The position numbers were made by a program, and so were the translations under genes. The notes beneath the pieces are model-generated. The model saw only the letters and a list, made by a program, of their open reading frames with translations, made no database searches and had not been told where the DNA came from. 38,389 nucleotides of DNA from Nitrospirota bacterium (lineage in GTDB: Bacteria; Nitrospirota; Thermodesulfovibrionia; Thermodesulfovibrionales; UBA1546): contig JACQXD010000021.1 of the NCBI GenBank assembly GCA_016208875.1, positions 1-38,389 on the forward strand. Reading direction: 5' to 3'. Shown piece by piece: positions 2,871-38,389 of the stretch (its first letter is position 1; every line of letters begins with the position of its first letter).

Positions 2871-2899
2871 CCAAAATACAGCTTACATTACTCTTAAAC

Positions 2900-3800: not shown

Positions 3801-3806
3801 TTATTG

Positions 3807-3812: not shown

Positions 3813-3888
3813 GATTTTGAGGTAATTTTAACAGATATCCGGCTCTTTATAAAGGACTATTCCGTTTAATACTAAATTGACAGTTTCT

Positions 3889-4020: not shown

Positions 4021-4045
4021 TCATCTATGCTTTGCCTTCTACCCT

Positions 4046-4612: not shown

Positions 4613-4826
4613 GAGAAAGCCTTTTTGCAACTTCTTTTACGACTATATCTTCACTCCATTCAGGATGAGTTTTTTGCACATAAGTCATCAACATGCTGCG
4701 CGCAGACAACCAGATATTAAAACCAATCCTAATTCTTTCAGCAGATGTCTTACTGCTTAATACGTTCGCCATTTGGTCATCCACGACCTCAATCTGTCCT
4801 TTATCGAGTCTTAGTGTCTTCTTCAT
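4599..4826 (-). CDS. Small conserved partner of the nucleotidyltransferase (putative antitoxin)
   Basis: The 75-residue protein has a helical C-terminal half, RIRIGFNIWLSARSMLMTY, followed by THPEWSEDIVVKEVAKRLSH. This is a pattern I know from short proteins encoded immediately before nucleotidyltransferases of the downstream type. Its ATG lies one base after the argB stop, so it depends on read-through of the argB transcript and probably on coupled translation. It overlaps the nucleotidyltransferase by 14 bases. The antitoxin role is inference from gene order. Confidence 0.72.
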   Translation of the reverse strand: MKKTLRLDKGQIEVVDDQMANVLSSKTSAERIRIGFNIWLSARSMLMTYVQKTHPEWSEDIVVKEVAKRLSHGAI

Positions 4827-4827
4827 T

Positions 4828-18577: not shown

Positions 18578-18747
18578 ATCCACGCGGTGCTGCTGACAGG
18601 CAGAAACTCGGTCAGTCTCTGAACAATTCCGAGAATTATCACTTCAAACATCGTATGATTATAACAGATTTACGTCCGAATATTTTCTGAAATACTCATG
18701 CCGTATAGAATCACACAAAGGAGCAACCCTCTGTTGACAAACATCTG

Positions 18748-22800: not shown

Positions 22801-23173
22801 AGACCACTTCGGCCATTATGTAGATAAACACGGAGAATACTACAGTAATCTCGTCCTTAGAAAGATAGGTGATCTTCTGAGGAAAAATATAAGAGGCTCG
22901 GATGTGGTTGTGAGATACGGAGGCGACGCCTTTGCATTGATACTTACGAATACGCTTCTCTCTTCGGGCGTGAGCCTCTGTAAAAGATTTCTTTCCATAA
23001 TACATGATTATCCGTTTCTTAAAGAGGAATCCCAGCCTAACGGCAAGATCACTGCAAGCATAGGGATGCTTGAGTTCAAAGGACAATCCCCTGAAGAACT
23101 GATCCAGTCGGCAGAGAAGGCACTATTCCTTGCCATTGAGAAGGGGAGAAATAAGGTAGAGGTTATTAGCTAA
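19832..23173 (+). CDS. Hybrid histidine kinase: Rossmann - GAF - PAS - HisKA - HATPase - REC - REC - degenerate GGDEF
   Basis: The 1113-residue, apparently soluble protein starts at ATG 19832 with GGGAGG upstream. Residues 1-110 form a Rossmann-like nucleotide-binding domain (IAIVGAGKGGSSLLDVF, NATGKPEV). A GAF domain follows (about 115-270), then PAS (about 287-400) and a coiled coil. The HisKA box SHELRTP has His 450, and the ATPase has the N box NLLSNAIKFTP near 564, DEGIGI and GTGLGLS. The first receiver has Asp 752 (TLDIMLPKKDG) and KPVD. The second has Asp 876 (IIDLNIPEDG) but an unusual switch region. The GGDEF domain carries GGDAF at 1030-1034 in place of GGDEF, so cyclase activity is unlikely. 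The partner HD-GYP regulator lies upstream. Confidence 0.95.
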   Translation: MIKIAIVGAGKGGSSLLDVFHTNGEVKVVGITDKDGKAQGLRLAKEWDIFIAADIKDLYSRNPEIMINATGKPEVSALIKDTAPHSVEVIEGTSAKFLWEIVRRHQMAKNDMDVLYQSGLLLTKARNLKEVLDKVLLSAMELTEAHAGSIALVERAEMVMVAHSGLSPEFFKEPRWRPRDTGLTSYILKATGCVEFQNIEKEPLFAGTKILKEGIKSLLACPLFLDGGVVGILYIDDFRPREFTERHKNLIQLFGAKAAQAIEKSKILDELYMNIHELDKTTSYLQSVLNDSEDMIATTDTEGRIVEFSMGGERILGYKKDEVAGKTASDFYVNADERNKIADILKKIGAVHNHETVLLRKDGTQVDINLTISQLRDRTGKIIGTVGVSKDITVEKHLRRELEEKNRELSELNERLEDKVLERTKELDKINRELRRANEVKARFIASMSHELRTPLHSIMGFSEILLDKTFGDVNEKQEKYITNIHTSGRHLLHLVNNVLDLAKIESGKVELSYESFTLKDVIDEVISVIKPLADKKLIEVKSDISGNADFTADRVKFKQVLYNLLSNAIKFTPDNGKTGIRAEKLTNKDIFPWAPQGTEFLKVSVWDEGIGIKPDDKEKIFEEFEQVDQSRSTEGTGLGLSLTKRLVELHGGHIDVESTYGKGSVFNFYLPVVVLPKTAIGKKQVLPEAVSTFAWADENAPQVLVVEDDLPTSELLTIHLTRAGYRVAHAYDGIEAIEKARELQPFVITLDIMLPKKDGWEVLQSLKADPKTSDIPVIIHSIIDNKELGFALGAADYLVKPVDKAVLLGRLGELSLATKKRRFPVTILTVTDDKNTQDYLNEIFIGEGFLTQFASDAEGGIDLALATKPNVTIIDLNIPEDGFNLIKNFKENPATKGIPIFALTSTTLSSDESLRMAGQIERILRKDALSSKELINHLRDLEVLLPKRAGLIDEITGLFNHRYFQIRLAQETTRAKRYKFPLVLAVLDVDHFGHYVDKHGEYYSNLVLRKIGDLLRKNIRGSDVVVRYGGDAFALILTNTLLSSGVSLCKRFLSIIHDYPFLKEESQPNGKITASIGMLEFKGQSPEELIQSAEKALFLAIEKGRNKVEVIS

Positions 23174-23204: not shown

Positions 23205-23903
23205 TTACGAAAAGAGCCGGAAAAGCAGAAAGGTCACTACTGCCCCCATGAGGCTGCCGAGAATTACCTCCCACTTATTGTGAACCTTTCTTACGATCCT
23301 GCTCTGTGCGATCAACACCGCAAGGATAAAACAGAGCAGTGACGCGATGAAGTTCTCCGTTATATACGTTATTGCAACCCAGGCTGAAAATGCGAGTGCG
23401 GCATGCCCGCTCGGCATGCCTCCGCTTAATGGATGACCCTTTCCGAAAGAGGCCTTCGTTATCACCACAAGTATAAGCACGATTATAAATGAGATGATAG
23501 CGATATCTTCCTTTGAGTGTTTTGTTATGTGAAGTCCTTTATCAAAAATATCACGTATATAAGGAAATAAAATGATATAGCCTATGAATGCAACTCCAAA
23601 TGCCGTTAAAAATACTGCACCGGCAGCTATGTCCTTTACCGCACGCACTTTTTCATTATGTCCCGGAGACATTATGTCGGCTATCGCCTCTATAGAGGTA
23701 TTAAACATTTCTGCAAGGAGCACGGCTATCACCGAAAGGGCAATTATCAGAAATTCCGTACGTGTGACACCTACGATATAACTCAAGAGAAGCACAACGG
23801 CAGCACTGTAGAAATGATACCTCAGATGCCGCTGGGTCTTCGCTGCATGAAGTATCCCCTCTATCGCAAAATTAACGCTCTTAATCCATTTTCTGAGGGG
23901 CAT
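23205..23903 (-). CDS. Diacylglycerol/undecaprenol kinase (DgkA type) fused to a PAP2 phosphatase domain
   Basis: The 232-residue membrane protein joins two lipid enzymes. Residues 1-115 are a DgkA/UndK domain with AEMFNTSIEAIADIM and KVRAVKDIAAGAVF, the acid and lysine pattern of the Gram-positive-type kinase that phosphorylates undecaprenol. Residues 120-232 are a PAP2 domain with GMPSGHAALAFS and SRIVRKVHNKWE. The central histidine and SR-H elements are there, but the final Asp of SRx5Hx3D seems replaced by Glu or shifted. Combined kinase and phosphatase activity would tune undecaprenyl phosphate. The start overlaps the upstream YfhO gene by 23 bases, so it is the last gene of that operon. 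The substrate of the PAP2 half is inferred. Confidence 0.9.
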   Translation of the reverse strand: MPLRKWIKSVNFAIEGILHAAKTQRHLRYHFYSAAVVLLLSYIVGVTRTEFLIIALSVIAVLLAEMFNTSIEAIADIMSPGHNEKVRAVKDIAAGAVFLTAFGVAFIGYIILFPYIRDIFDKGLHITKHSKEDIAIISFIIVLILVVITKASFGKGHPLSGGMPSGHAALAFSAWVAITYITENFIASLLCFILAVLIAQSRIVRKVHNKWEVILGSLMGAVVTFLLFRLFS

Positions 23904-26304
23904 TTTCCGGCTTAAGTTGTTCTCTATTGAGAAAATAATATACCAGGTACATTCCCATGCATAGATAAAAGATACCGTAAACCATTTTCACCGGATAGGG
24001 ATTATATATCCATTGAACGGTATGCTCACCTGCCGGCAACTCGATTGCCTTGAAGGTGAAATTGGCCCTGTGTACCTTTGTCTTCTTTCCGTCAACATAA
24101 GCAGACCAGAATCTGTCATAGTTGTCGAGGAAGTATAGAAAACCGTCTTTATCGCTTCTTATACCGATAACGACTTTGTTAGGCGTATATTCTTTTATCC
24201 CGTATCCCCATGCAACGGGTTCACGTGGGTCTGCATTTTTGAAATTTACCAATTGTTCATCATGCAGGTAAAACAGCGGCTGACTCCTTTGTATCGTCCG
24301 GTCGGTATCCAGTTCCTTTATCTTCATAAACGGCAGGTAATAACCATTGCGGAACAACATGAAGGCAGGATACCTTATCATCCTGCCTGCCTTTGAGCCA
24401 TTAGGCATTATTTCGGGTTTCCAATTAGGTAAAAAAATCTCACCCGTCTCCCTTGTCGCCAATGTAAGCCATTCTTTTGTTGACCAATTAGGCCACCACG
24501 CATTGTGATAAAGCCCCTGATAATTTTCAGGAAACATCCTTTCTGCCTCGGAAAAGATCGGCTTAAAGACCGAATCATCAGGGATATCCATACCCCTTGC
24601 TGCCAATTCCCTAAATGGGTATACTATGCGTTGTGCGTAATCTTCGAGAGGGACATTGCGCCTGTTTTCTATGTGGGCAGAAGTAGATGCATTTAAATCC
24701 ATAAAAGTAAGAGCGATCAGACATAAAGACAATACTGTCTTCACGATTTTGCTGTCCGACATAAACAATATTCTACAAATAAAAGTGAACATCAGTAGGT
24801 AGATGCCCATATGAAACAGCGTTCGACGCATCCAGTAAAACTGGGACGAGGAATCGTTTATAATGCCTGCTGCAATAAGGACAATACCCGTTCCCGATAG
24901 GAGCAATAGCGATTTTTTAAAGAAATACCCGACCTCAATGTAATCCGGATCCGTTGACCCGGTATCGGAACCGCTCCTCAGTAACCTATCAAGCCCGATA
25001 GCTGCAAGGAATATTAAAAATAAGAGAGGCCCTCCTCTCGGGAAAATAGTCGCCATATTCGTAATATTGCGAAATATATCGGAGTTATCCGTCAATACCT
25101 TATAAACTATATTGTCAACAGCATAAATAATAAAGGCATTACAAAGAAAATATGTAAGAAATAAGACGTAGATATAGCGGTTTCTTAAACATGATAAAAG
25201 TGCAGTAAGTATCAATGGCAGTGTTGCAAGGCCGATATACCTATTGTCGTGATTGCTCCATGCAAATCTTAGGAAAACGTCGTGCACCTCCGGGAAGGGT
25301 AACCAGCTTACCACCGCAGTCCAGCTTTCTGTTGTAGCAAAGGGGACACGAAAATCCTCTGTAATCCCCCCTGCTTCCTCATAAATCATGGGGTTTTTCC
25401 CATCGGTCCCTCCACGATACTTTAGAATATGACCTGCATTGTAATGAAAGGGGAGCCACGAAGCCGTAAGACCCGATATTATCAATAATATTAAAAGACC
25501 TCCTATAATTTTGCCCCTTAACGGTTTTATTAATCCAAGGAATAAACGATAGGCATCCCTTATCAGGCTTATGTTGAATATCAAAAGCAAAAAGGTGAAT
25601 ATCACGCTCCAGTAAAAGGCCGACATAAGAATTCCGTTCTGAAGGCTCGCAAAAAACAACCCGAGGAATAACAAAAATAATATCAGGTTGCCCTTAGTCC
25701 TATTGTTATTAAGACGTATTAATGCAAATAGATAAAAAAGAGGGGCAACCATTGCCTCAAATGCATAAAAGTCGTGAAAGTTCAATAACTGAAAATAAGA
25801 GAATGAGAAAACAAATACCGGCAAAATAGCCGCTATCCTGCTTGAAACCAGTTCCCTCGATATCAAGTAGACGGCTATCATATTCAAAAGAACTATATAG
25901 ATGGTCTGATGAAAGATGATATAACTGTTGATGCTCATATCGGTAAGGAGACTGAGAATTTTAAACAATATCAATGAGGGCAGGTAATAAGGCCCCAGAT
26001 AGTTACTCCAGCCTGAAAGGAAGTGATAATAAAGGGGATAACCACCCCAACTTGTAGGGTCCCACCAGGGCAAAGAATTGAACTGTTTGATCGAGTAAAG
26101 AATAAAATATTTAAACGACCAATAAATATATGTATCCCCTGCAAAAATATATTCTCCTGAAAAAAACCGCCGCGAGAAAACGAAATAATTCAATATTAGT
26201 ATGGAGGATATGACCAGAACACCGAAGATTAATTCATTACCAAAGATTTTGGAAGGCTCTTTTTTTATGCTATCCAGGATATTTTCTACTTTGTTTTTAA
26301 TCAT
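23881..26304 (-). CDS. YfhO-family membrane protein (paralogue 1)
   Basis: The 807-residue protein has roughly a dozen transmembrane helices (residues 25-540) followed by an extracytoplasmic domain and one last helix. Near the N terminus lies DPTSWGGYPLYYHFLSGW, and the C-terminal domain has FLYFLDNYDRFWSAYVDGK, ANFTFKAIELPAGEHTVQW and YNPYPVK. This is the YfhO hallmark 'D..W.A.VDGK ... N..F.A..LPAG.H.V...Y.P'. YfhO proteins are GT-C-like; the Bacillus member is linked to glycosylation of lipoteichoic acid. A role in polyprenyl-linked sugar transfer to an envelope glycan is inferred. ATG 26304 overlaps the stop of paralogue 2 by 4 bases. It is clearly a duplicate of paralogue 2. Confidence 0.88.
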   Translation of the reverse strand: MIKNKVENILDSIKKEPSKIFGNELIFGVLVISSILILNYFVFSRRFFSGEYIFAGDTYIYWSFKYFILYSIKQFNSLPWWDPTSWGGYPLYYHFLSGWSNYLGPYYLPSLILFKILSLLTDMSINSYIIFHQTIYIVLLNMIAVYLISRELVSSRIAAILPVFVFSFSYFQLLNFHDFYAFEAMVAPLFYLFALIRLNNNRTKGNLILFLLFLGLFFASLQNGILMSAFYWSVIFTFLLLIFNISLIRDAYRLFLGLIKPLRGKIIGGLLILLIISGLTASWLPFHYNAGHILKYRGGTDGKNPMIYEEAGGITEDFRVPFATTESWTAVVSWLPFPEVHDVFLRFAWSNHDNRYIGLATLPLILTALLSCLRNRYIYVLFLTYFLCNAFIIYAVDNIVYKVLTDNSDIFRNITNMATIFPRGGPLLFLIFLAAIGLDRLLRSGSDTGSTDPDYIEVGYFFKKSLLLLSGTGIVLIAAGIINDSSSQFYWMRRTLFHMGIYLLMFTFICRILFMSDSKIVKTVLSLCLIALTFMDLNASTSAHIENRRNVPLEDYAQRIVYPFRELAARGMDIPDDSVFKPIFSEAERMFPENYQGLYHNAWWPNWSTKEWLTLATRETGEIFLPNWKPEIMPNGSKAGRMIRYPAFMLFRNGYYLPFMKIKELDTDRTIQRSQPLFYLHDEQLVNFKNADPREPVAWGYGIKEYTPNKVVIGIRSDKDGFLYFLDNYDRFWSAYVDGKKTKVHRANFTFKAIELPAGEHTVQWIYNPYPVKMVYGIFYLCMGMYLVYYFLNREQLKPENAPQKMD

Positions 26305-28697
26305 TCTGCTGACGATGCGTCAGGGATTGTTTCTATTTTCTTTCGCCCTTGAGACCCGGAATAAAGCAGAACAACAAAGAGTATTATAAGAATCAGATAA
26401 AAACCTAAATAAGCCGATTTAACGGGATAGGGATTATAAACCCAAACAATATTATGGGTCCCGGCAGGTAATTCGATAGCCTTATGGGTAAAATTAGCCC
26501 TATGAACCTTGACCCTTTTGCCGTCAACATATGCAGACCAGAACCTGTCGTAGTTGTCGAGGAAGTAGAGAAAACCGCTCTTATCCGTACTGCCTTGCAT
26601 AACAACCTTATTAAACGTGTATTCCTTTAATTCGTAAGAACCAAAAACCTGTTCCCTCGGATCTGCATTCTTAGACCTTACCGGTTGTTCATCATGCAGA
26701 TAAAATAATGGGTCAGCATAATAAATAGACCTGTCACCGTCTAATTCCTTTATCCTTTCAAAGGGCAGATAATAGCCGTTCCTGAAAAATCTGAAATCAG
26801 GATACTTTGTCATTCTGATAGCCTGTGGATTCCAATTTAATAAAAACCTTCGGCCGTCCTCTCTCGAAGCCAGGAACATCCACTCCTTTATAGTCCAGCT
26901 AATTCTATTGGAGTTATGATAAATCCCAAAATAATCTTTGGGGAACATGCTTTCCGCCTCGGAAGTAATAGGCTTAAAAACAACATTGTCGGGAATGGTC
27001 ATGCCTCTTGCCGCCACGTCCTCATAAGGGAACGCGATATGCACGCCGACGTACCTGCCTTTCTCCTCGGGAACTTGATCCGGCTGCTTTAGAATGTAAG
27101 ATGACGCGGCTACCGTTAAATCGGTAAAGGTAAAAATAAACAGACAGGATATTACGGCCCTTCTGATAACCTTATCATTCGATATAAATAATATCCGGCA
27201 GAGAAAGGTGAATATCAGTAAATAAATGCCTATATGCCCGAGCGAATGTCGAACCCAGAAAAGCATCGGCGACAGTGCACTCAATATGTTGGCGACAATG
27301 AGAATACATCCGGCTAATAGAAGAACCGTCAAAAATCCCTTAAAAAGATTTTCGAATCGGATACTTCTCTCGTGTATGGATAGTTCATTGTGCGCAGAGA
27401 TTTTTAATAATTTGTCCAGTCCAATGACCGAGAGAAAGATTAAGAATAAAGGTGGTCCTCCTCTGGGAAAGATAGTTGACATATTTGCTACATTCCGAAA
27501 GATATCCGAATTATCGGTTAATATCTTATAGACAATGTTATCGGTAGCATAAATAATAACGGCATTACAAAAAAAGTAAGTAAGGAATAAGATATAAACG
27601 TAGCGATTCTTTAAACACAGTGTAAGTGCGGTAATAATCAACGGAAGCGTTGCAAGACCGATATAACGATTTTGATGTCCGTCCCATGTAAATCTCATGA
27701 AGGCATCGTGTATTTCGGAAAAAGGCGTCCAATTAAGAAATACGCTCCAGACCTCCGATGAAACAATAGGAAGATAATAATCCGTAACCAATCCTGTAGC
27801 GTCATAAGCTAAAGGCTTGTTACCCTCACCGCCCCGGTACTTAATAACGTGCCCTGCATTGTAATGAAAAGGTAGCCATGAAGCAACGAATCCGGATATT
27901 ATTAATAATACCAATAGAACGGCGATTATTTTGCCCCTAAACGGCCGTATCATTTCCATGAATATACGGTAAGCATCTTTTATCAGACTTACATTGAATA
28001 TCAATAACAAGAAGGTGAATATCACGCTCCAGTAAAAGGCCGACATAAGAATTCCGTTCTGAAGGCTCGCTAAATATAAACCGAGGAATAACAAGAATAA
28101 TATAAGGCTGCCCTTTGTCCTTCTATTGTTAAGTCGTATGAGAGCAAATATATAGAATAATGGGGCCACCATTGCCTCAAATGCATAGAAGTCGTGAAAA
28201 TTCATGAGTTGAAAATAAGAGAATGCAAAGATAAATACCGGCAATATGGCAGCTATCCTATTTGTAACCAATTCTCGTGAGATCAGGTAGACGGCTATCA
28301 TATTTAAAAGAACTATATAAATGGTCTGGTGAAAGATTATATACCCGTTAATACTTATATCGGTGAATAGGCTGATGATTTTAAACAGTATTAACGAGGG
28401 TAGATAATAGGGGCCAAGATAGTTACTCCAGCCTGAAAGGAAGTGATAATAAAGGGGATAACCGCCCCAGCTTGTAGGATCCCACCACGGCAGCGAATTG
28501 AAATACTTGATAGAGTAAAGGATCATATACTTGAAAGACCAGTAGAAATATGAATCCCCGCCAAAGGCGTACTGCCGAGAGAAAAAGAGTCTGGGGAATA
28601 CCGGATAATATAATACCATTATTCCGGATATGACCAGAATACCGAAGATAAATTCATTCTTCAGCCCGGCTCTGAGTCTATCTAAAATATTTTTCAC
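26301..28697 (-). CDS. YfhO-family membrane protein (paralogue 2)
   Basis: The 798-residue protein is the tandem sister of paralogue 1. The two share long identical stretches (LPWWDPTSWGGYPLYYHFL, QNGILMSAFYWSVIFTFLLL, TIFPRGGP, FWSAYVDGK). The membrane part again has about a dozen helices, and the C-terminal region has the YfhO beta domain with ANFTHKAIELPAGTHNIVW. Divergence is concentrated in the extracytoplasmic segments, for instance the part with VPEEKGRYVGVHIAFPYE, which may decide acceptor or donor. The start is GTG 28697. The stop overlaps paralogue 1 (ATGA). The SDR gene ends 37 bases upstream. Confidence 0.88.
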   Translation of the reverse strand: MKNILDRLRAGLKNEFIFGILVISGIMVLYYPVFPRLFFSRQYAFGGDSYFYWSFKYMILYSIKYFNSLPWWDPTSWGGYPLYYHFLSGWSNYLGPYYLPSLILFKIISLFTDISINGYIIFHQTIYIVLLNMIAVYLISRELVTNRIAAILPVFIFAFSYFQLMNFHDFYAFEAMVAPLFYIFALIRLNNRRTKGSLILFLLFLGLYLASLQNGILMSAFYWSVIFTFLLLIFNVSLIKDAYRIFMEMIRPFRGKIIAVLLVLLIISGFVASWLPFHYNAGHVIKYRGGEGNKPLAYDATGLVTDYYLPIVSSEVWSVFLNWTPFSEIHDAFMRFTWDGHQNRYIGLATLPLIITALTLCLKNRYVYILFLTYFFCNAVIIYATDNIVYKILTDNSDIFRNVANMSTIFPRGGPPLFLIFLSVIGLDKLLKISAHNELSIHERSIRFENLFKGFLTVLLLAGCILIVANILSALSPMLFWVRHSLGHIGIYLLIFTFLCRILFISNDKVIRRAVISCLFIFTFTDLTVAASSYILKQPDQVPEEKGRYVGVHIAFPYEDVAARGMTIPDNVVFKPITSEAESMFPKDYFGIYHNSNRISWTIKEWMFLASREDGRRFLLNWNPQAIRMTKYPDFRFFRNGYYLPFERIKELDGDRSIYYADPLFYLHDEQPVRSKNADPREQVFGSYELKEYTFNKVVMQGSTDKSGFLYFLDNYDRFWSAYVDGKRVKVHRANFTHKAIELPAGTHNIVWVYNPYPVKSAYLGFYLILIILFVVLLYSGSQGRKKIETIPDASSAE

Positions 28698-28734
28698 TAT
28701 TTAAATATAACAAAAACTATAACCGTTTTTTGTT

Positions 28735-29526
28735 CTACCTTTTGCATTTCTTTTTGGACTCGAGCTTTAAATATAATCCGAATATCCACGAATATGCAAT
28801 CTCGGGAATGAATCTCAGCACATAATTATAAATAAAAAAATGCCAGAAAGGGTAATTAATAACCCGCGGAGGACGATCCCTGAGAATTGCAGCGACTATT
28901 TTTTTCGCGCCCATAGAATAAGTTGGAATAAACCACTTCGGTAATCTTACATCTCCGTCATTTTTTATATTGCCGATATTCACTGCCGTAATCTTAACGC
29001 TCTTACGCCATGCAACCCTTAAACATTTAAGTGCCATATTAAGATACGCCTTTGATGCGGGATATGCGAGATAAGGCAGATAAAGAGGCGGTACATTACC
29101 CCACAAAGAAGATATTCCCACAAAAATGCCTCCATATTTCAGCAAGTGCGGTTCAAAGGCAAATAGAATATTCCCGATGCCGTTAATTCCCACGCGGTTT
29201 ACATTATCGAAGGCGGTATAATTAATAGTTTGATCTTTATTAATATCCTTTTCTATATGAGCGGAATTGAAGATAACACACACAGAGTTGGGAGATAACG
29301 TCATAGAAATATCTTTTAAAACCTCACGGCATAGTGGAGAGGCAATATCCATTTCAATATGGCGGTATCTGCCCGATGCAATCCATTGTTCGTGATTTTT
29401 TATATTCTCAAGTTTTGTCCTGGCGATACCGATAATCCGATACGGGGTTTGTTTGAGAAATTCTTCAACAAGGGCAGCCCCGAGTCCTCTGGATGAACCT
29501 ATAATGATGCAATATTTAATTTGCAC
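28735..29526 (-). CDS. Short-chain dehydrogenase/reductase
   Basis: The 263-residue protein has the SDR cofactor motif CIIIGSSRGLGAALVEEF at the N terminus, and the catalytic region has GISSLWG and YLAYPASKAYLNMALKCL with the YxxxK pair. The RTKLENIKNH region suggests NADP(H), because basic residues follow beta-2. The NAG motif reads FNSAHIEK, which is unusual. The C terminus (WHFFIYNYVLRFIPEI and on) is hydrophobic and may touch the membrane. GTG 29526 is the likely start. Its position within the YfhO group suggests it makes a sugar or lipid substrate for this system, but the substrate is unknown. Confidence 0.85.
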   Translation of the reverse strand: MQIKYCIIIGSSRGLGAALVEEFLKQTPYRIIGIARTKLENIKNHEQWIASGRYRHIEMDIASPLCREVLKDISMTLSPNSVCVIFNSAHIEKDINKDQTINYTAFDNVNRVGINGIGNILFAFEPHLLKYGGIFVGISSLWGNVPPLYLPYLAYPASKAYLNMALKCLRVAWRKSVKITAVNIGNIKNDGDVRLPKWFIPTYSMGAKKIVAAILRDRPPRVINYPFWHFFIYNYVLRFIPEIAYSWIFGLYLKLESKKKCKR

Positions 29527-29568
29527 AGTTGACTTTTAGTATCCGTTTTAAAAAGCGATAAATCTTAA

Positions 29569-31998
29569 TCAACGGTATCTCGGATACCGCATTATCTTCA
29601 ATAATATATCTTGTATAAATATTATACTAATTACTGAAACAATAAGCACAATTCCTAATATATAAAAGAAATATGCATGCTTTACATGTGCAGGTTCATA
29701 TGAAAACTTAACAATATGCCGCCCTTTTTCAAGAAAAACAGACTTGTAATTGTAATTAGCAATTTTTATAGGCAATTCCTTGTTGCCGTCAAAAGCTTTC
29801 CAGTGTTTGCTCCAGCTATCATTCAGATATACGTATCCATCATTATCCGCTGTAATTTTCAGGCTAAAAGAATTATTAGTCATAGCAATATCACTGATTT
29901 CATGTATATCTGATTTAATAAATCTTATAGACTCTGCACGCCTCCGTTCAATATCAGCCCTGTTCATCATATAGTACTGCCATATGTACTGTGGCTCCAA
30001 ATCATATGTTGTTTCATACGAATCAAGATCGGCAATAGCGGTGTTACTGCCGGGGGCAATTTGATTGTTCTCCGTTTCAATAAACAGTTTTTCAGCAACC
30101 GATGGATTCGGGGTCGTCAATATATTGAAAATGTCCCGCTTTGTCGCCTTCACTACGGACTCAACCGGATAGAATTTTACGATTGGATCTGTAATTCCGG
30201 TTAGCACAAAAAGATTTTGAGTAGGCGCATGGGTAATCAGATCGTAATATCTCTTCGTGGTAATTACGGTATGTTCAACTACTCTCGACAATGCTCCAAA
30301 CTCTTGCTGAAGATATTCCTGAAAAGTAAACGGCTTAAAGTACTGCGGGAATGAAAAAGGCTCTCTATAGAGGGGCACATTTTTGAGATAGCTGGGATAA
30401 TCAGCATCATAATATTCAAAGCTCGGTTTTTTATCATACAGTAATACATACTTAAAATTACTGTCCTGATACATCAGATTGTAAAAGCCTAAATCAAAAA
30501 AAATCATTAAAATTAGTGTCCAGGTGAGCAAATGCGGGTTAATTCTTTTGAAAATGACTGTTATTCCCATAATGACTGCTAAGGACAGCAAAACCAATAG
30601 ATCATATCTTGATACTATATATACGCTTTCGTAATAATAGGCAATTACCAGTTTGGTTAGTAAAATGAGAAAACCTGAAATATATATTAAAGGGTTATTT
30701 ATCTTGTCTTTTTGCGAATGATAGACTTCCTTCATTCCGAGAGCCAATAATATAGCTATATACAGCATAAAAAAAGCCATTTCTGCATTTCTTGACCTGA
30801 TCATACCAAGGGGAGGGAAAATAAAATTGAACGCTTTTTGAATTACATTATATTGTTGTGACCATATCGGATTATAAATATTTACAAACATGACCAAAGC
30901 ACAAAATACAGCCAGTTTCTTGTATTGAGAATTCGATTTTGCAATACCATAGATAATAATAATAAGTGAAAGTATGCCTATATAGACGTATACGTCTGCT
31001 ATTTCATATTCAAGCGATGGAATACTTTTCAATAGATCCGGGAATAATACATTTACTATATTCGCCTTTGTTACGAAGGTCGCCTTATTATTTGCCAGAT
31101 TACCTGAAAGCATAGATACTTCCAAATCTGATGCAATTATTTTTTTGAAGCCGCCCGATTTAATACATGAGAGAACCCTACTACTGGGAAATATTTCAGA
31201 ACCTTTACCCCCGTCATTCAATATCAAGGCAATTGCAGGCCAGCTGATCATCACGAAACATACGAATCCTCCAAAGAGCGAAAACAGAATTTTTTTATCC
31301 CTGATTATCTTATTCATTACTTCCATCGGCTTAACCATTCCAAACAGAACGAGAGAAAAACAGAAAATCAGGACATTGAAAAAGTAGAAAGACGGGATGT
31401 ATATATTTACACTGATGCCTGCAAAAAGCGCCAATGACAGTATTGATAAAATAACTGTTCGCCTGGTCGCATTCCCATTACTCATCTTAAGAATTAATAG
31501 CATGCTCAATGGCGTTAATAATACTACATAAAGACTCCATGCCTGCCTGTAGAAAGATGGGAAAAAAGCACATAACATAACTCCAGAAGCAAATAACGAA
31601 GAAAATTTGCATCGAGATATTTCATAAAGAAGGAAATATAATCCAATAACAAAAACCACACATCTCAGAAATATGAACAGGACATATGAATTTGTTATGG
31701 ATAAAACCTTCGCCCAATGGAGGATCAAACCCGGGATTATTAATGGATCCAGCAATCCTATATGAGACACTACTGGATAAAATGGCATACCAGTTATTGA
31801 GTAAAAATTCCAATAGGGTATCTCTCCACCTATCAAACATTTTACAAAATAATGATATCCCCCATAAGACACAAGCGTATCATATGAAAAAAATTTTTCT
31901 CCAAATATTAGCCCTTTATTTAAAAATAAGGCTAATATTATTAATGCTATTGCCATCGGAACAAAATGTTTGATTTTATTATTACGCACAACTATCAT
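29569..31998 (-). CDS. YfhO-family membrane protein (paralogue 3, divergent)
   Basis: The protein has about 809 residues, with multiple transmembrane helices through residue 510, an extracytoplasmic domain and a C-terminal helix. The YfhO end pattern is present in a variant form: DGYVYLNDSWSKHWKAFDGN, then NYNYKSVFLEKGRHIVKFSY and EPAHVKHAYFFYI. The N terminus has YDTLVSYGGYHYFVKCLI and IPYWNFYSITGMPFYPV, the first-loop element where donor-binding acids sit in GT-C enzymes. Start ATG 31998 is chosen; a TTG at 32028 also fits the frame and neither has a convincing ribosome site. Sequence identity to paralogues 1 and 2 is much lower than between those two. Confidence 0.8.
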   Translation of the reverse strand: MIVVRNNKIKHFVPMAIALIILALFLNKGLIFGEKFFSYDTLVSYGGYHYFVKCLIGGEIPYWNFYSITGMPFYPVVSHIGLLDPLIIPGLILHWAKVLSITNSYVLFIFLRCVVFVIGLYFLLYEISRCKFSSLFASGVMLCAFFPSFYRQAWSLYVVLLTPLSMLLILKMSNGNATRRTVILSILSLALFAGISVNIYIPSFYFFNVLIFCFSLVLFGMVKPMEVMNKIIRDKKILFSLFGGFVCFVMISWPAIALILNDGGKGSEIFPSSRVLSCIKSGGFKKIIASDLEVSMLSGNLANNKATFVTKANIVNVLFPDLLKSIPSLEYEIADVYVYIGILSLIIIIYGIAKSNSQYKKLAVFCALVMFVNIYNPIWSQQYNVIQKAFNFIFPPLGMIRSRNAEMAFFMLYIAILLALGMKEVYHSQKDKINNPLIYISGFLILLTKLVIAYYYESVYIVSRYDLLVLLSLAVIMGITVIFKRINPHLLTWTLILMIFFDLGFYNLMYQDSNFKYVLLYDKKPSFEYYDADYPSYLKNVPLYREPFSFPQYFKPFTFQEYLQQEFGALSRVVEHTVITTKRYYDLITHAPTQNLFVLTGITDPIVKFYPVESVVKATKRDIFNILTTPNPSVAEKLFIETENNQIAPGSNTAIADLDSYETTYDLEPQYIWQYYMMNRADIERRRAESIRFIKSDIHEISDIAMTNNSFSLKITADNDGYVYLNDSWSKHWKAFDGNKELPIKIANYNYKSVFLEKGRHIVKFSYEPAHVKHAYFFYILGIVLIVSVISIIFIQDILLKIMRYPRYR

Positions 31999-32050
31999 TT
32001 TATTAAAAAGTTGCCGTTGAAACAACAATTTCTTCTCTCAATTTGTTCTC

Positions 32051-34318
32051 TCACCGCACGCGTTCTACAGCAACAGATACACGTTTGCGCACACGCTGGA
32101 CAACAAACCATCCCACTATGATCAGAAAACCCGCCAGTGACAAAATGCTGATCGTCTTTCCTGCCGCATATCCCTTTGCACTATACGAAAACTTAATTCT
32201 ATGAACTCCTGCCGGCACTGCAACCGCACGGAAGGCATAATTTGCCCTTATAATCTTCGTTTTATTTCTGTCAATAGACGCGGTCCAGCCATCGGCAAAG
32301 CTGTCGTTCAACAGGAGAAGGGAATTCCCGGGCGCATCCGTTTCAAAGGCAATATCGTTGAGATTCTCCGCGACAAGTCTTACTACCCCTCTTTTCCCTG
32401 TTTGCCGGATCTCCAGTTCCGGAAGATCACTCAGAACTACCTTTTTTTGCGCATCGATGTCACCAGCAGGCCCGAGCAACGCCTCCAACGCAGCCCTGTC
32501 GTCCTTGAGAACGACAAAATCGTCATACAACGAATATCTGGGAAGGCTCCCCTGTATTTCATATATCCCATCGTTTTCGACAACAAAGCGCGTGGCGGTC
32601 AACTGCAGCGCCTTTGGATTATAAGGCCTGAGCTGCCTTGCCCTGTCCCTCGGGACGACATACGGATAGCCGTAAAGCATCTGAATATAATAAGGCAGAA
32701 TGTTATCGTATCCGGAGTTGTTGTACAAGCCTAAGGCTATCCCACGGTCATCCAATGTCCCGTCGCTCAATCCTAAAATACGAAAGTTCTGTCCGCTTGA
32801 TTTGAACGCCGAGGCAACAGCTCTTTCTCGATCTGAGGTCTTGAACAAAGTCTCCTCTACCATAAATGGGTTCTGGCCTTTCTTATCGCCTTTAGCAAAA
32901 ATGAGCAGGTCCACAGCCAGGAAGATAATAAACATCAACTTGAAAGCCGCTTCTCTCCATTGCCATTTTATCCTCAAGACAAAGAACAGTCCCATAAGAA
33001 TAAAAAAGAACGTGATGAAATGCATAAGAGCGGCCTTACCCCCGGACCTTAAGGCGTCTCTCTCCATATTGTAATAACTGATAAAAGCAAAGAACAAAAC
33101 AAGGACAAATAGAAAGGAAGAGAAAAGGACAAAACGGCGCACGTGCCTTTTGTTTTCGAAGATTATCTTGCCTGCGTACCCTGCCAGGACGGAAGTGCAC
33201 AGTGTTATAAAGTCGACTATGACGTTAAAAGAAAGATTGGTTTTGCCAGTCAATACAAAATGGATGTAAGCAAGAGGAGTCCCCAGCACCGTCAGGATAA
33301 TAAGGAGCGTTGCTAATTTATAGAATAGGGTTTTTTTGGCATGGATGAACAGAATCGAATATATGCCTAAAAAAGCAAAAAATACTCCTGAATATGTGTT
33401 AAAAAAATGCCATTCGAAGAAATTCGGCATAAAATAACGCAACAGGGCTTCCGGAGGCGTAATGTTATCTCTTAAGAATGTCTCATAAGATACCGTCAAT
33501 AAGGGATTTTCGACGGTTGTGAAATAGAAAGGGACATAGCGAACTGCGGCGATAAAAAACGCCGTTACAATGCTGGCTGCGACAATAAACCAGAGCCTAC
33601 GGTCTGGTTTATCTTGGATACCGTCGCCGATAGTTCCGCTATAGACCACAAAGAGAATGATGAAACCCAGACAATATATGATGTATTGCGTCATGCCTGC
33701 CAACAACAGGAGCGTCCATAAAATTGTGTGGAGTATAAAATTGGCAATCGGTCCTCTTTTATGAGAAGTTGCCGCAACATACAAAATAGCCGGCAGATAT
33801 AAAAAAGTAGAATAACCTTCCAAACTATGAAGTAAGTGTATGGTCGATGTTGATGAAAATAGATAGGACACTGCGCCGCAAAAAGCCCAGAAATCATCCT
33901 GAATAACTTCTCGAAATAACAGGAAGGCAAAATATCCTGCAAGAAAAAAATGGCCAATCGAGGCTGCGGTTGTCGCGTATTCAAAATATTTTACAGGGAA
34001 TGACCATACGATCCAGTTTAGGGGATAGAAAAAGGTATATGCAACTCTGGAAAAAAGCGTGTTACCGCAAAAAATAAATGAATTCCACTGAGGAATTTCT
34101 AAATTCTGAAATGCCTTTTGAAATAGTATATTAACCGGTATTATGGTATCGCGCCTGTCATAAGTACCGCCTAAAACATAACCCTTTGTAAAAAAATCAA
34201 GGAATAAAAAAAAGATCAACAGAAGCAATATAAAAATGTATATTGTTTGTGATGCCTTGTTTGTCGCAGTAAAAACTTCCGAGCAATACTTCCTCATTAT
34301 GCTTTTGCCATTTATCAT
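32051..34318 (-). CDS. YfhO-family membrane protein (paralogue 4, divergent)
   Basis: The 755-residue protein has the membrane architecture of the YfhO family and the C-terminal module NDSFADGWTASIDRNK followed by ANYAFRAVAVPAGVHRIKF. The N-terminal loop has YDRRDTIIPVNILFQKAF and IPQWNSFIFCGNTLFSRV, comparable to the first-loop acids of GT-C enzymes. Base composition is visibly less AT-rich in its 3' half than in its neighbours, especially paralogue 3 and the MORN gene, which may point to a separate origin. It is followed after 22 bases by the frame of paralogue 3. A second in-frame ATG lies seven codons in. Confidence 0.85.
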   Translation of the reverse strand: MINGKSIMRKYCSEVFTATNKASQTIYIFILLLLIFFLFLDFFTKGYVLGGTYDRRDTIIPVNILFQKAFQNLEIPQWNSFIFCGNTLFSRVAYTFFYPLNWIVWSFPVKYFEYATTAASIGHFFLAGYFAFLLFREVIQDDFWAFCGAVSYLFSSTSTIHLLHSLEGYSTFLYLPAILYVAATSHKRGPIANFILHTILWTLLLLAGMTQYIIYCLGFIILFVVYSGTIGDGIQDKPDRRLWFIVAASIVTAFFIAAVRYVPFYFTTVENPLLTVSYETFLRDNITPPEALLRYFMPNFFEWHFFNTYSGVFFAFLGIYSILFIHAKKTLFYKLATLLIILTVLGTPLAYIHFVLTGKTNLSFNVIVDFITLCTSVLAGYAGKIIFENKRHVRRFVLFSSFLFVLVLFFAFISYYNMERDALRSGGKAALMHFITFFFILMGLFFVLRIKWQWREAAFKLMFIIFLAVDLLIFAKGDKKGQNPFMVEETLFKTSDRERAVASAFKSSGQNFRILGLSDGTLDDRGIALGLYNNSGYDNILPYYIQMLYGYPYVVPRDRARQLRPYNPKALQLTATRFVVENDGIYEIQGSLPRYSLYDDFVVLKDDRAALEALLGPAGDIDAQKKVVLSDLPELEIRQTGKRGVVRLVAENLNDIAFETDAPGNSLLLLNDSFADGWTASIDRNKTKIIRANYAFRAVAVPAGVHRIKFSYSAKGYAAGKTISILSLAGFLIIVGWFVVQRVRKRVSVAVERVR

Positions 34319-34422
34319 TTTATATCTCTTCTTTAATATTCAAAAAATAGTCAATAATAGTACCACTGCCGATAAAACAATTTGACCCGTTCTACTGTTT
34401 TTCATCCACCATCCCCTCGCTT

Positions 34423-36543
34423 TCATCTAACCCCGATCGATACAAACAATATAATTAATTTTTCATAGAAAGTCAGATAATTTGTATTTTGAATATTTGC
34501 AATAAGAGTATAAATCAATTTAGAAATTGGGCCTACGGTAATAATAAAAAATAGAGCAGCTATTAACGTATTCGCTACAAGTCTTCTTCCTATCTTAGAT
34601 ACAAGACAATTCGTTGATATCACAAAGCACATCATACCACATAGAGAACCCGGATAGAGAAATCTTGTCATATTCGATTTAAAATCCCAATCATACTCAT
34701 TAAATACGAAAGAAAAAGCTATTATATAACCAAAGAAAAAAATGATTGCAACAGAATGCACAAAAAATCTCCAGTCATCTTGCATTGAAGATGCTTTTTT
34801 GTTCAACAAAAAATAGAGCGATAGCACTATCCCGGCTAAAGGGAAAAATATTGTTTTCAGTGACTCAATAAAATTTCTCTCTGCAATCAATATCAATTTG
34901 GACAAGCTTAAAATATCCGTCTTTCGTTCTGCAAATGCACGTACGTCTGTCTCATTCCAATTAACAATTTCATCTCTAAAGCCAGCATGATATGTCAGCA
35001 AAGGGAGAATTAAGACTTGTCGTTGTTGGGCATACCTGTCGGCCATTGAGAAAGATCTACTATCCCCGGTAAAAGGCAATTCCGTCTTTTCTCTAAGCTC
35101 ATAAGGGGTTAATAATCCTCCCTGCCTGCTTCCAAAAAGTGTAAAAATTAAAAAAATCATTAAGACAATTACTTGCGGTTTAAATGATTGCCCTTTCCTG
35201 ATCGTGTTGAATAGAACAGTTATCATTAATATTCCAAAGAGAATGATATTCTGAGCGCCGGTTATATGCCAGGTTAAGGTCATACAACAAATGAATGCAA
35301 AAAAGATTGTTTTTGAGCGGACGCCTCCCAAAACAAGATGATATGCCCATATTATGGCAATAACAAAACTGGCAAAAGTAAAAATAATATCCGTATAACT
35401 GGTAAATAACATCGGTTCAGCAATATTGTAAGGTATAAATGAGAGGGCAGGATTACCGATCCATAAAATGCCAAGACCGATCTTATCCCAAACGGCCGAT
35501 AACTTAAAATGCCTCAAAAACCCCAAGACCATAAGAGAGCAAATCAAAATAGATAAGCTTAGCCAAAGATATAATGAAAAAAACGGATGCATGAATCCCA
35601 TAAAACCAGGGATTGCAGCCAATAAACTTTGAGCATAAGACATCTGAGAAATAGGAATTCTATCATGGTCATTAATATATCTTGCGAAGTTGGCGTATGC
35701 GCCGCTGTGCAAACTGCTGATATCTCTTCCAGGCATATCAACAACATACCCAACCGGCTTAAAATGAAATGAGAAAACAACCGCCCCAATAAACACTGTC
35801 AGCAATACAAACATGGTTAATGCACGTAAAGAAAATATATATCTATGCTCTACGAGAAACATCTTTATCGTTTTTGCTTTGAATAACACAAAAATCAGCA
35901 TTGTGGCCAGGGTTAGCGCCAACATTACCCCACAATGACCGAATAGGTACTCAGACGTTCTCCATGTTGAAAGAAGGACACTTAAACCGATAAAGTAACC
36001 GGCGCCAACAACAAAATAAGGGTGTTGAATTCCACCTTGAATAGCAAGCAAATAAATTATAGCCCCCATTAAAATACATAAAAAAGAAACACAAATGATT
36101 ATAAAAGTGTTTAGCAGTATCCTTTCGAACATTTCGCGTTGAGTGTATCTTGTATAAATTGTGGTAACCGGATCAAACTTATCCCGGACCATATATCTGG
36201 CAAATCCTGAGGTTAGATAGCCGGAATTGAAAATCCCCTTTATAAGATCAACTCCCTGTTGAGAATACTCTCCATATCCGTCTGGCAGCCCATTTTTCCA
36301 TCCCCCAAAATATTCGGCGCCATCGATGAATTTTATATTCCCTTGCCCATTTGCATTAAAATCCTTCCACTGGCCAGAATATAAATAGTTATCAGCAAAT
36401 AGCGCAGTTCCATATCCTTCCTCACAGTTTCCAACTACACATTTAACATCTAAAAAAGCATATGATTTGGAAGACAATATGTTCACACTGACAAGTAAAA
36501 CAATAATCAATAGCAATATCTTCCCCAATTTTGTCAAAAACAT
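34423..36543 (-). CDS. MORN-repeat multi-spanning membrane protein
   Basis: The 706-residue protein starts with a hydrophobic signal-like segment (residues 5-29) and a short extracytoplasmic region with MORN-type repeats: YLYSGQWKDFNANGQG, AEYFGGWKNGLPDGYGEY, and a third degenerate unit (residues 35-100). About a dozen transmembrane helices follow. One loop, YVVDMPGRDISSLHSGAYA and on, is of the size seen in the first loop of GT-C glycosyltransferases, but no signature of a named family is certain. ATG 36543 has GGAA upstream. It sits between a lipoprotein gene and the YfhO genes on the same strand. Function unknown; a glycan polymerase or transferase role is inferred from context only. Confidence 0.8.
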   Translation of the reverse strand: MFLTKLGKILLLIIVLLVSVNILSSKSYAFLDVKCVVGNCEEGYGTALFADNYLYSGQWKDFNANGQGNIKFIDGAEYFGGWKNGLPDGYGEYSQQGVDLIKGIFNSGYLTSGFARYMVRDKFDPVTTIYTRYTQREMFERILLNTFIIICVSFLCILMGAIIYLLAIQGGIQHPYFVVGAGYFIGLSVLLSTWRTSEYLFGHCGVMLALTLATMLIFVLFKAKTIKMFLVEHRYIFSLRALTMFVLLTVFIGAVVFSFHFKPVGYVVDMPGRDISSLHSGAYANFARYINDHDRIPISQMSYAQSLLAAIPGFMGFMHPFFSLYLWLSLSILICSLMVLGFLRHFKLSAVWDKIGLGILWIGNPALSFIPYNIAEPMLFTSYTDIIFTFASFVIAIIWAYHLVLGGVRSKTIFFAFICCMTLTWHITGAQNIILFGILMITVLFNTIRKGQSFKPQVIVLMIFLIFTLFGSRQGGLLTPYELREKTELPFTGDSRSFSMADRYAQQRQVLILPLLTYHAGFRDEIVNWNETDVRAFAERKTDILSLSKLILIAERNFIESLKTIFFPLAGIVLSLYFLLNKKASSMQDDWRFFVHSVAIIFFFGYIIAFSFVFNEYDWDFKSNMTRFLYPGSLCGMMCFVISTNCLVSKIGRRLVANTLIAALFFIITVGPISKLIYTLIANIQNTNYLTFYEKLIILFVSIGVR

Positions 36544-36690
36544 GGTTCCTTCGGTTTAATGTCATATTTTTTCAAACGGTATAAATTCATAAGTCACTTC
36601 TTATCAGATTTCCCTGAAGGAGTTGAATTTTATTATCATATTTTTTAAGTCAAAAGGATCATCAGGTTTAAAATCAAACATTCCAAAACC

Positions 36691-37053
36691 TTAATCCTTG
36701 AAATGCACTGCAATACCTATAGCCGTCGGACTTCCCCACATACCTTCATGTCCATAGTTAATGCGAATTACCGCATCGGCACCCAGTTTCCCGGCGGTCT
36801 TTCTCAACGTTTCGTTAATTTTATCAATCTTAGTCCATGACGATGACCGAACATTTATGACTGCAATTTCTTCATAGTCCCTTTTTATATCTGAAGACGT
36901 AAGCAAGATATTGAAATCCGGAGCCTTCGGCGAGTATCTACTCGAAGAAAGTATAGAGAATTCGGGATAGGTGATCCCATCACAACCACTCAAGAGAAAT
37001 ATAATCTCTACAATTAAGATAAATGAGAAATATCTTATACTTTTCTTCTTCAT
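36691..37053 (-). CDS. Small lipoprotein
   Basis: The 120-residue protein has a lipoprotein signal peptide: KKKSIRYFSFILIVEIIFLL followed by the lipobox LLSGC, with Cys 24 as the likely lipidated residue. The mature part has YEEIAVINVRSSSWTK and LRKTAGKLGADAVIRINYGH, then a glycine-rich AIGIAVHFKD end. This recalls small YbjQ- or RcsF-like folds with 'GADAVI' motifs, but I cannot name the family with confidence. ATG 37053 overlaps the stop of the radical SAM gene by 4 bases, so the two are co-translated. A 147-base gap separates it from the MORN gene. Confidence 0.78.
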   Translation of the reverse strand: MKKKSIRYFSFILIVEIIFLLSGCDGITYPEFSILSSSRYSPKAPDFNILLTSSDIKRDYEEIAVINVRSSSWTKIDKINETLRKTAGKLGADAVIRINYGHEGMWGSPTAIGIAVHFKD

Positions 37054-38389
37054 TTCTCCCCTATCCGACTGGTCACTTTGTCTCCAAATATCTTTGTAAT
37101 CCTTTCAATAATTATTTCCAACAAAATTCTAAATCCTCTGAATAGTTTTTTAATATCATCCATTGTGCGAAGGGCTGGATTAATATAAACAGGATTGTTG
37201 TAATTAAAGGCTAAATAATCGGCCCACTTACTGGTTGCGCGCAGGGAACCTTCTTTCTTGCAAACTTCAAAGAGAGCCGTTCCGGGGTAGGGAACGGGAA
37301 TCCAGAATAGGGCGATATAAGCACCAAGTTTTTTTGCATAATGTATGGTATTACGGACCATATCTTCATCTTCGCCCGGAAGACCGATAATGAAATTATT
37401 TATATATCGCATGCCGGCTTTTTTAATTAATTCTACTCCCCTTGTCTGTTTTTCAACCGTTGTTTTTTTGTTCACTAAATCAAGTGACTCCTGATTGCCG
37501 GATTCTATTCCAAGAGAAATCTGTCTGCATCCTGCTTTATACATCAGTTCCAGAAGTTCGGAATCGACACAATCTGCACGGGTATTACATACCCAGGACA
37601 AACCGAGGTCTTCTTTGATCATAAGTTTCATAAGTTCTACGACAAATTTCCGGTTTGTCGTGAATGTCGAGTCCTGAAAGTAAAATCCTCTGGCCTTTTT
37701 CTCATATTTCAAAATTTTTAATTCCTCTATAATCCTCAATGGACTATAATACCTGAATTTTTTTCCTAAGATTTTTGAAGCGCTGCAATATAAACAGCTA
37801 TAGGGACAACCCCTCTGGGTGAAAATCGGATAATGTGGAAGCCTTATGTATTGGGTAATCTGAGGTGTGTAACGTATAATGTCCAGATCATTATAGAATC
37901 CGAGAGGCAGGACATCGAGATTTTCGATCAAGGACCGGGAAGGATTAATAATAATAATATTGCTGCCGTCTCTATAGACAATGCCTGAGATATCGGCCCG
38001 GTTATTACCATTTGCCAGTGCATATAAAAGTTCGTCCATAGTAAATTCACCTTCCTGCATGACAATGAAATCGAGTTCCGGACATTGATTCATGCTCAAT
38101 TCGGGAAGCAATGTAACATGTATATTACCCATTACAACTTTACACTGAGGCAATGCCTCTTTTACGAGCTTTGCCGTTTGAAAGGCATAATCCGCAGTCG
38201 GGGTAAATACCGACATGCCGACAACATCATATCTCTTATTTTTCAAATGTGCCTTTAATGTTTCGGCATCGAAATCTCCAAATTGTGTATCAAGGAAATC
38301 TACATTGTAACCCCTCGTTTTAATCCAGTTGTAAATAGAAATAATACCCATCGGAGAGAAAAATCCCCTACGTGACTTAATATTCCCCC
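37050..38389 (-). CDS. B12-binding-type radical SAM protein, N terminus cut by the window edge
   Basis: The frame stays open to base 38389. The codons before the internal ATG at 38351 read GNIKSRRGFFSP, as in the usual 'RG.FSPMGI' start of this family, so the true start lies outside. About 446 residues are visible. The N-terminal part is a cobalamin-binding-like Rossmann domain (DVVGMSVFTPTADYAFQTAK, VVMGNIHVTLLPE). The radical SAM core has the 4Fe-4S motif in RGCPYSCLYCSA, then SLGIESGNQESLDLVNKKTT and NFIIGLPGEDEDM. Such enzymes often methylate or rearrange lipids, sugars or cofactors. The substrate is unknown; the gene order places it first in the envelope cluster. Confidence 0.92.
   Translation of the reverse strand, partial: GNIKSRRGFFSPMGIISIYNWIKTRGYNVDFLDTQFGDFDAETLKAHLKNKRYDVVGMSVFTPTADYAFQTAKLVKEALPQCKVVMGNIHVTLLPELSMNQCPELDFIVMQEGEFTMDELLYALANGNNRADISGIVYRDGSNIIIINPSRSLIENLDVLPLGFYNDLDIIRYTPQITQYIRLPHYPIFTQRGCPYSCLYCSASKILGKKFRYYSPLRIIEELKILKYEKKARGFYFQDSTFTTNRKFVVELMKLMIKEDLGLSWVCNTRADCVDSELLELMYKAGCRQISLGIESGNQESLDLVNKKTTVEKQTRGVELIKKAGMRYINNFIIGLPGEDEDMVRNTIHYAKKLGAYIALFWIPVPYPGTALFEVCKKEGSLRATSKWADYLAFNYNNPVYINPALRTMDDIKKLFRGFRILLEIIIERITKIFGDKVTSRIGEK

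Follow-up and report, generated by a model that had tools for sequence, protein, structure and literature searches.

YfhO-like genes on a Nitrospirota contig as a probable part of a surface-glycan island beside a conserved DAGK/PAP2 gene

Results

A row of nine genes at the end of the contig

The stretch of DNA that we analyzed (the window) is the entire contig C86, 38389 bases long, of a 2.93-Mb draft genome of a Nitrospirota bacterium. Numbers beginning with G, C and L are our handles for genomes, contigs and loci; the source genome is G000. A first-pass annotation of the sequence had described an envelope cluster with four YfhO paralogues, a MORN membrane protein, short-chain dehydrogenase (SDR) and radical SAM enzymes and a kinase/phosphatase fusion, and we confirm these genes on the minus strand at the coordinates in Table 1. 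The row comprises nine genes with operon-like spacing in the ORF list, eight of them intact frames and one cut at the contig end. They are transcribed in the order B12-radical SAM enzyme, lipoprotein, MORN membrane protein, Y4, Y3, SDR, Y2, Y1 and DAGK/PAP2 fusion, and the gaps between them, counted from the end of the fusion gene to the end of the radical SAM gene, are -23, -4, 37, 42, 22, 104, 147 and -4 bases, none of which contains a listed minus-strand terminator-like site. Measured in 2-kb steps, the G+C content of the row lies between 0.35 and 0.44. Since the window is the whole contig and ends at 38389, the sequence upstream of the row cannot be read; the last 120 bases match nothing elsewhere in the genome, so there is no overlap pointing to a neighboring contig.

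Table 1. Genes of the row, listed in the direction of transcription
Feature	Coordinates	Strand	Basis
B12-binding radical SAM enzyme	37050..38387	-	Pfam; frame open at contig end, start may be missing
Small putative lipoprotein	36691..37053	-	ORF; lipobox-like LSGC read from sequence
MORN membrane protein	34423..36543	-	phmmer to solved MORN protein, hydropathy
Y4, YfhO-like	32051..34318	-	PF09586 over cut-off
Y3, YfhO-like, own clade	29569..32028	-	Relatives and profile match to Y1/Y2
SDR, between Y3 and Y2	28735..29526	-	adh_short
Y2, YfhO-like, tandem copy of Y1	26301..28697	-	Homology to Y1
Y1, YfhO-like	23881..26304	-	PF09586 over cut-off
DAGK_prokar-PAP2 fusion, lipid kinase and phosphatase	23205..23903	-	Pfam

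The four YfhO-like proteins are unequally related

Measured against the PF09586 (YfhO) gathering cut-off of 28.5 bits, Y1 (31.6 bits) and Y4 (57.5 bits) are members of the family, while Y2 falls below it at 22.4 bits and is YfhO-like by homology to Y1, with which it shares 65% identity over 783 columns. Y3 gave no PF09586 match by hmmscan at E 0.1 and 22.9 bits in a six-frame search, and its placement as YfhO-like comes from homology to Y1 alone: the two proteins align near both ends (3e-9 and 1.5e-10), and a profile comparison joined them over 701 columns (98.9%, 1.1e-17), the profiles being thin ones of three and two sequences. The identity to Y1 is 24% for Y3 and 23% for Y4. The description of four paralogues thus holds, from Pfam for Y1 and Y4 and from the homology of Y2 and Y3 to Y1, but it conceals a very unequal set of one close pair and two remote members. 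Y4 also shares 58% identity, over 118 residues, with the C-terminal part of another YfhO protein of the same genome, whose gene is truncated where contig C165 ends. In this region (L054, 13804-17970) the truncated gene lies near epimerase, RfaE-like and SIS genes, which were named by eye.

The PF09586 matches mostly cover the last ~80 positions of PF09586. In Y1 the last predicted helix spans residues 774-792 and the preceding one residues 520-538, a predicted topology like that published for Bacillus subtilis YfhO, which, in the available part of PMC5836110, has many helices and a long loop before the last. Structure models were unusable, with a mean pLDDT of 35.0 for Y1 (modeled with its three paralogues) and 42.9 for the MORN protein (modeled alone), and a profile of the Y3 clade matched no solved structure at E 1. 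We infer that Y1 to Y4 are candidate GT-C glycosyltransferases of the YfhO-like type.

Identity between Y1 and Y2 is 83% in residues 24-298 and 76% in residues 701-772, compared to 38% in both 299-350 and 446-548. The first part of GT-C enzymes forms the donor and catalytic site. If residues 24-298 are that part, the two proteins would share a donor and differ in acceptor, because it is there that they are most alike; Y1 and Y2 thus probably use a common donor and differ in the acceptor or in the position that they modify. The proposal that each YfhO adds a different sugar is therefore doubtful for this pair, which differs least in the presumed donor/catalytic region. The pair offers a natural test of donor versus acceptor choice in YfhO-like enzymes.

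Y3 belongs to a clade with recurrent glycosylation neighbors

When a profile of Y3 and two relatives was searched against 229 other genomes of the class, with at most four candidates scored per genome, 11 full-length relatives were recovered from 9 of the genomes. All of them belong to another family of that order, f13, and the 15 other genomes of the source's own family yielded none (partial matches at G269:C82 and G260:C98 were left out of the count). These relatives are 25-30% identical to Y3. Across the resulting 12 proteins, H59, W73, D94, D272 and E278 are kept in all and D50 in 11, with E in the remaining one; Y3 keeps every one of them. D50 and D94 come after the first hydrophobic helix and may correspond to the conserved acidic residue that GT-C enzymes carry in their first outside loop. 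PF09586 was reached at E 0.01 by 2 of the 12 members. One member (alignment A6) matches DUF6541 (8.8e-07), a possible link between DUF6541 and YfhO-like proteins.

We read ten loci that hold Y3 relatives. Six of them contain a GT2 gene whose product we term CsbB-like because of its GT2 domain, its size and its one or two predicted helices, and two more have an SDR gene directly upstream of the Y3 relative. In G294 and G232 the GT2, GtrA and YfhO genes are consecutive, and G350:C126 carries two B12-radical SAM genes followed by GT2, YfhO, GT2 and YfhO; Pfam confirmed the identity of the GT2 (four), GtrA (two) and radical SAM (two) proteins at these three loci. At G265:C35, G056 and G350:C85, which are the loci L182, L185 and L186, the GT2 gene lies 3-6 kb from YfhO with other genes in between, and its product is 26-29% identical to the queries. 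The SDR genes of G379 and G241, also identified by Pfam, encode proteins 26-27% identical to the window SDR. Four of the ten loci, L178, L179, L183 and L184, have no GT2 match at the threshold used; the two SDR loci are among these four, and three of the four lie at a contig edge. Neither GT2 nor SDR was seen at the Y3 relatives of G269 and G038:C65, both at a contig edge, and in G269 a second, cut YfhO gene lies upstream. The clade thereby provides, within Nitrospirota, a sequence-supported partner set (GT2 and GtrA, found beside some members) together with residues for testing.

Runs of YfhO genes and distribution of the row

YfhO-family proteins had been described as usually occurring singly or in pairs; our comparison does not support the view that four in one run lack precedent. 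We defined a run as at least three PF09586 frames (E 0.001) within 20 kb of one contig and looked for it in 61 genomes in which every candidate was scored; 3 of the 61 had one, namely the source genome, G004 and G011. In G004 a radical SAM gene lies between the first and second of three YfhO genes. Among 17 further genomes, picked mainly for their many candidates and so giving no frequency, G293:C140 (L156) has five and G382:C71 (L157) four consecutive same-strand YfhO genes, the outermost in each being cut by a contig edge. These two runs resemble ours as same-strand YfhO-like genes but differ in having no SDR, radical SAM, GT2 or GtrA match at the thresholds used. Runs were counted in the 61- and 17-genome sets only, because no more than two candidates per genome were scored when PF09586 was searched across the phylum. 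Runs of four are thus uncommon, yet the phylum offers precedent for them, and given the similar runs we see in the YfhO row a large representative of a known kind and not a new system.

Individual members of the row are patchily distributed. Among 60 related genomes Y1 had no full-length match at E 1e-10, two genomes giving C-terminal matches only, and a scan for Y1 and Y2 by two short peptide patterns confirmed nothing, which is weak evidence of rarity. In the 15 same-family relatives that we searched we found neither Y1 nor Y3, and the SDR in one. Joint conservation, which the first-pass annotation had named as the check on its reading, applies to parts of the row: the exact row was not found elsewhere, but pieces of it recur. 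The patchy spread and the uneven G+C suggest lateral arrival of the row.

SDR, radical SAM, MORN and lipoprotein genes

The SDR matches adh_short (Pfam, 4.2e-14). Full-length relatives occur in 2 of 60 genomes, G011 (45% identical) and G038 (40%), and in both a radical SAM gene adjoins the SDR relative, with both Pfam domains confirmed in G038. A contig scan with the SDR returned 25 loci; the only full-length match was L076 from Nitrospirae bacterium RBG_19FT_COMBO_42_15, and the 24 partial matches in other organisms were dropped. We found no radical SAM gene like the window's in L076. The SDR of that organism is 79% identical to the G011 relative, and the genes next to it in L076 share 66-70% identity with genes from two contigs of G011. 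These similarities point to Nitrospirota as the most likely phylum of the source, with mild caution because G011, which belongs to the source's family, has 9% contamination.

The radical SAM protein contains B12-binding (2.6e-17) and Radical_SAM (1.7e-28) domains by Pfam. None of the best 25 of its 48 NCBIfam matches reaches the cut-off, HpnJ being the best at 216.1 bits against 577.6 and BchE scoring 206.4 against 481.35; the start of the protein may be missing. The putative lipoprotein matched nothing in Pfam or NCBIfam.

The MORN protein scored under the Pfam cut-off (MORN, E 0.003), and its residues 41-91 match a solved MORN protein in phmmer (9.8e-11). Hydropathy indicates a hydrophobic N-terminus, MORN repeats at about residues 41-93 and then many hydrophobic helices; the stretch after one helix has several Asp residues. 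In 345 genomes of the phylum, with at most three candidates scored per genome, the membrane part was matched only by a copy on contig C11 of the source genome (31% identity). That second copy, in the region L075 (G000:C11, 136-10391), is cut by the contig start and is followed by four radical SAM genes. Two of these have a B12-binding domain above the cut-off, a third has one below it, and in the fourth none was seen; the region also holds a GT2 gene and an AsnB-like gene, the latter named by eye.

The DAGK/PAP2 fusion is a conserved neighbor

The fusion protein of 232 amino acids contains DAGK_prokar (4.8e-29) and PAP2 (8.4e-13) domains, both over the Pfam cut-off. Its kinase segments E-x-x-N-x-x-I-E and K-D align with solved DgkA, and the letters PSGH and SR-x5-H, read from the sequence, are what we take to be the catalytic motifs of the phosphatase domain. 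The gene had been proposed to serve the row as a dedicated part of the pathway. We rejected this role: 95 of the order's 121 genomes, the source genome included, carry the fusion, and at the thresholds used we saw no match to YfhO, GT2, GtrA, SDR or radical SAM queries at any of 12 fusion loci read elsewhere. The fusion is probably a conserved neighbor.

In 4 of 8 same-family loci (G005, G001, G014 and G012) the fusion is adjoined, as it is here, by a hybrid histidine kinase gene, and in 6 of the 8 a lumazine synthase-like gene (ribH, by eye) lies on the other side, once with a frame between. In the source genome, ribH is on contig C248 beside parAB-looking genes (also by eye). With these neighbors kept elsewhere and ribH here on C248, we place the YfhO row at the edge of a rearrangement, where it adjoins a gene that is itself conserved. 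The fusion and the YfhO row may be co-transcribed, as Y1 overlaps the fusion by 23 bases.

Glycosylation genes recur at some YfhO loci

We read 27 YfhO loci, which were fetched for holding YfhO, are of unequal lengths and form a part of those found (L158 was omitted as part of L187), and used as controls the 12 fusion loci from elsewhere. A GT2 match was present in 10 of the 27, a radical SAM gene like the window's in 6, and GtrA and SDR in 2 each, compared to 0 of 12 control loci for each of the four at the thresholds used. Several queries came from the same YfhO loci; leaving out same-locus queries alters only the GT2 count, which becomes 9 of 27, and 8 of 27 loci have a match to the set of three CsbB-like queries. 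Of the 6 loci with a radical SAM gene, 5 have a B12-binding domain above the Pfam cut-off, and the sixth, L161, is just under (29.9 versus 32.1 bits). Because both locus sets were hand-chosen and differ in gene content generally, the counts show that these genes are associated with glycan regions and do not amount to a test of whether they are direct partners. The recurring B12-radical SAM neighbors hint at a modified sugar.

Discussion

Comparison with known systems

Taken together, the available portions of PMC8035078, PMC10584680, PMC11127046 and PMC5836110 give the CsbB-GtcA-YfhO model of transmembrane glycosylation, and the function of YfhO is known there from Gram-positive teichoic acids. 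The row resembles these systems of B. subtilis, Listeria and Staphylococcus aureus in the Pfam family of Y1 and Y4, in topology and in the side-by-side GT2 and GtrA genes at some Y3 relatives; it differs in having four YfhO-like genes, an SDR and a B12-radical SAM gene. The visible part of the row is not a complete CsbB-GtcA-YfhO system. It contains no cytoplasmic glycosyltransferase, in agreement with the first-pass annotation, and neither a GT2 nor a flippase gene (ORFs, Pfam); the GT2 and GtrA partners are present at the Y3 relatives in G294 and G232. Because the source is a Nitrospirota bacterium, we know of no reason to expect teichoic acids as the acceptor.

A second parallel is the three-component pentofuranose addition of Citrobacter, in which, as far as the accessible text of PMC11127046 goes, the SDR epimerase ORF13 works alongside a GT-C enzyme and edits the sugar, thereby setting which one is added from the lipid carrier. 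That system has a transferase of family GT136 and an entry enzyme that uses PRPP, and its ORF13 is likened to GalE, while the window SDR matches adh_short. The accessible text of PMC10584680 also describes a YfhO-like 'component 27', bacterial membrane proteins labeled YfhO and distinct from the reference YfhO, which Y3 and its clade fit loosely, by description alone. Among the literature matches listed, we found none on YfhO in Nitrospirota or nitrospirae; the only ones on YfhO with radical SAM were Acidithiobacillus/cold work, and the only ones on a tandem YfhO family were group B Streptococcus work.

A proposed route for lipid-linked sugar

We consider it fairly probable that the row belongs to an island for surface glycan upstream of the conserved DAGK/PAP2 gene, in which Y1 to Y4 would act as YfhO-like GT-C glycosyltransferases using lipid-linked sugar. 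By analogy with CsbB-GtcA-YfhO, we infer that GT2 enzymes encoded elsewhere in the genome would charge polyprenyl phosphate with sugar in the cytoplasm, that a GtrA-type or other flippase would turn the lipid-linked sugar over, and that the YfhO-like enzymes would transfer the sugar, outside the inner membrane, onto a polymer or protein of the cell surface. The SDR would most likely edit the sugar while it is attached to nucleotide or lipid, in the manner of ORF13 from the Citrobacter systems, and the B12-radical SAM enzyme would probably make a further change to sugar or lipid. A GT2 query from G011 matched six places in the source genome, on C2, C236 (two), C1, C179 and C11, five of them at E 7.5e-22 or better and the one on C11 weakly (1.7e-8). 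One of the C236 genes is adjoined by a DUF2304 gene, which we take to be of the helper kind known from GacJ. A separate membrane protein that works with a glycosyltransferase is described in the available part of PMC8035078.

The core of what the first-pass annotation had proposed, lipid-carrier-dependent extracytoplasmic decoration by YfhO-like enzymes, is likely and has gained support, from the GT2 genes beside Y3 relatives and the consecutive GT2-GtrA-YfhO genes of two genomes. Weighing against this route are the lack of GT2 and flippase genes in the visible row, the lack of a solved-structure match for the Y3 clade, the low number of its members that reach PF09586, the four Y3-relative loci with no GT2 at the threshold used and the distance and low identity of the GT2 genes at three others. 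The island is real and operon-like; the oddities attributed to it (run length, a dedicated kinase/phosphatase, one sugar each) fail or are unproven.

Alternative explanations

The full version of that earlier proposal, in which the four YfhO proteins add different sugars stepwise and the fusion is a dedicated carrier-recycling part, appears unlikely to us. The remoteness of Y3 and Y4 from Y1 fits different donors for these members, as does G350, where each of two Y3 relatives comes with a separate GT2, but the Y1/Y2 divergence pattern is the reverse of what different sugars would lead one to expect, and the wide occurrence of the fusion, with no YfhO at 12 loci elsewhere, speaks against a dedicated role. 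We regard as very improbable a reading in which the YfhO-like proteins are membrane scaffolds or binding proteins, not transferases, and their conserved C-terminal domain holds glycan. The concentration of PF09586 matches near the end of that family would suit such a role, and the available part of PMC5836110 reports a lack of conservation for two potential DXD motifs in the B. subtilis protein; the same source nevertheless reports that yfhO is needed for LTA glycosylation in B. subtilis. Moreover, the Y3 clade has nearly invariant acidic and aromatic residues, some close to the first helix and others further along the protein, and GT2 and GtrA adjoin some of its members.

There is likewise little chance that the row merely brings together assorted glycan genes with no one shared product. 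The uneven G+C, the confinement of full-length Y3 relatives to another family of the order and the source genome, and the break point upstream of the fusion are what a mixture would produce, but the one-strand arrangement of eight intact frames and a cut one with small gaps argues against it, as does the recurrence of an SDR beside the Y3 relatives of G379 and G241, remote though those SDRs are from the window's. A more elaborate variant of our preferred island, a periplasmic workshop, is a speculation to which we give a rather slim chance. Here the SDR would edit the lipid-linked sugar and the B12-radical SAM enzyme would C-methylate or rearrange it, several YfhO-like transferases with a common donor core and different acceptor loops would use it, and the MORN membrane protein, itself possibly a GT-C enzyme given the Asp residues after one of its helices, would present the acceptor or anchor the set. 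If true, one island would attach a single kind of unusual sugar at several different sites.

Other genes of the contig

The left part of the window has features of its own. Beside the fusion, a plus-strand gene (19832-23173) encodes a hybrid histidine kinase of 1113 amino acids with GAF, PAS, HisKA, receiver and GGDEF domains; its N-terminus has no Pfam match and, judged from the sequence, resembles a nucleotide-binding fold of the glycine-rich kind. A BacA/UppP undecaprenyl-diphosphatase gene (17768-18583, minus strand) lies at a distance of about 5 kb from the fusion. The left contig end cuts a gene for a Cas_TM1802 CRISPR-associated protein (3-953, minus strand, 2.1e-41); we saw no CRISPR array among the direct repeats of 900-4900. 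Nucleotidyltransferase (Polbeta) and AbiEii-like genes, kinds that are frequent in toxin-antitoxin or defense regions, occupy low-G+C DNA at 961-3586 (minus strand), and two direct repeats at 2125-2243 and 3896-3996 (34 nt, 91%, and 45 nt, 82%), ~1.77 kb apart, flank the AbiEii-like gene.
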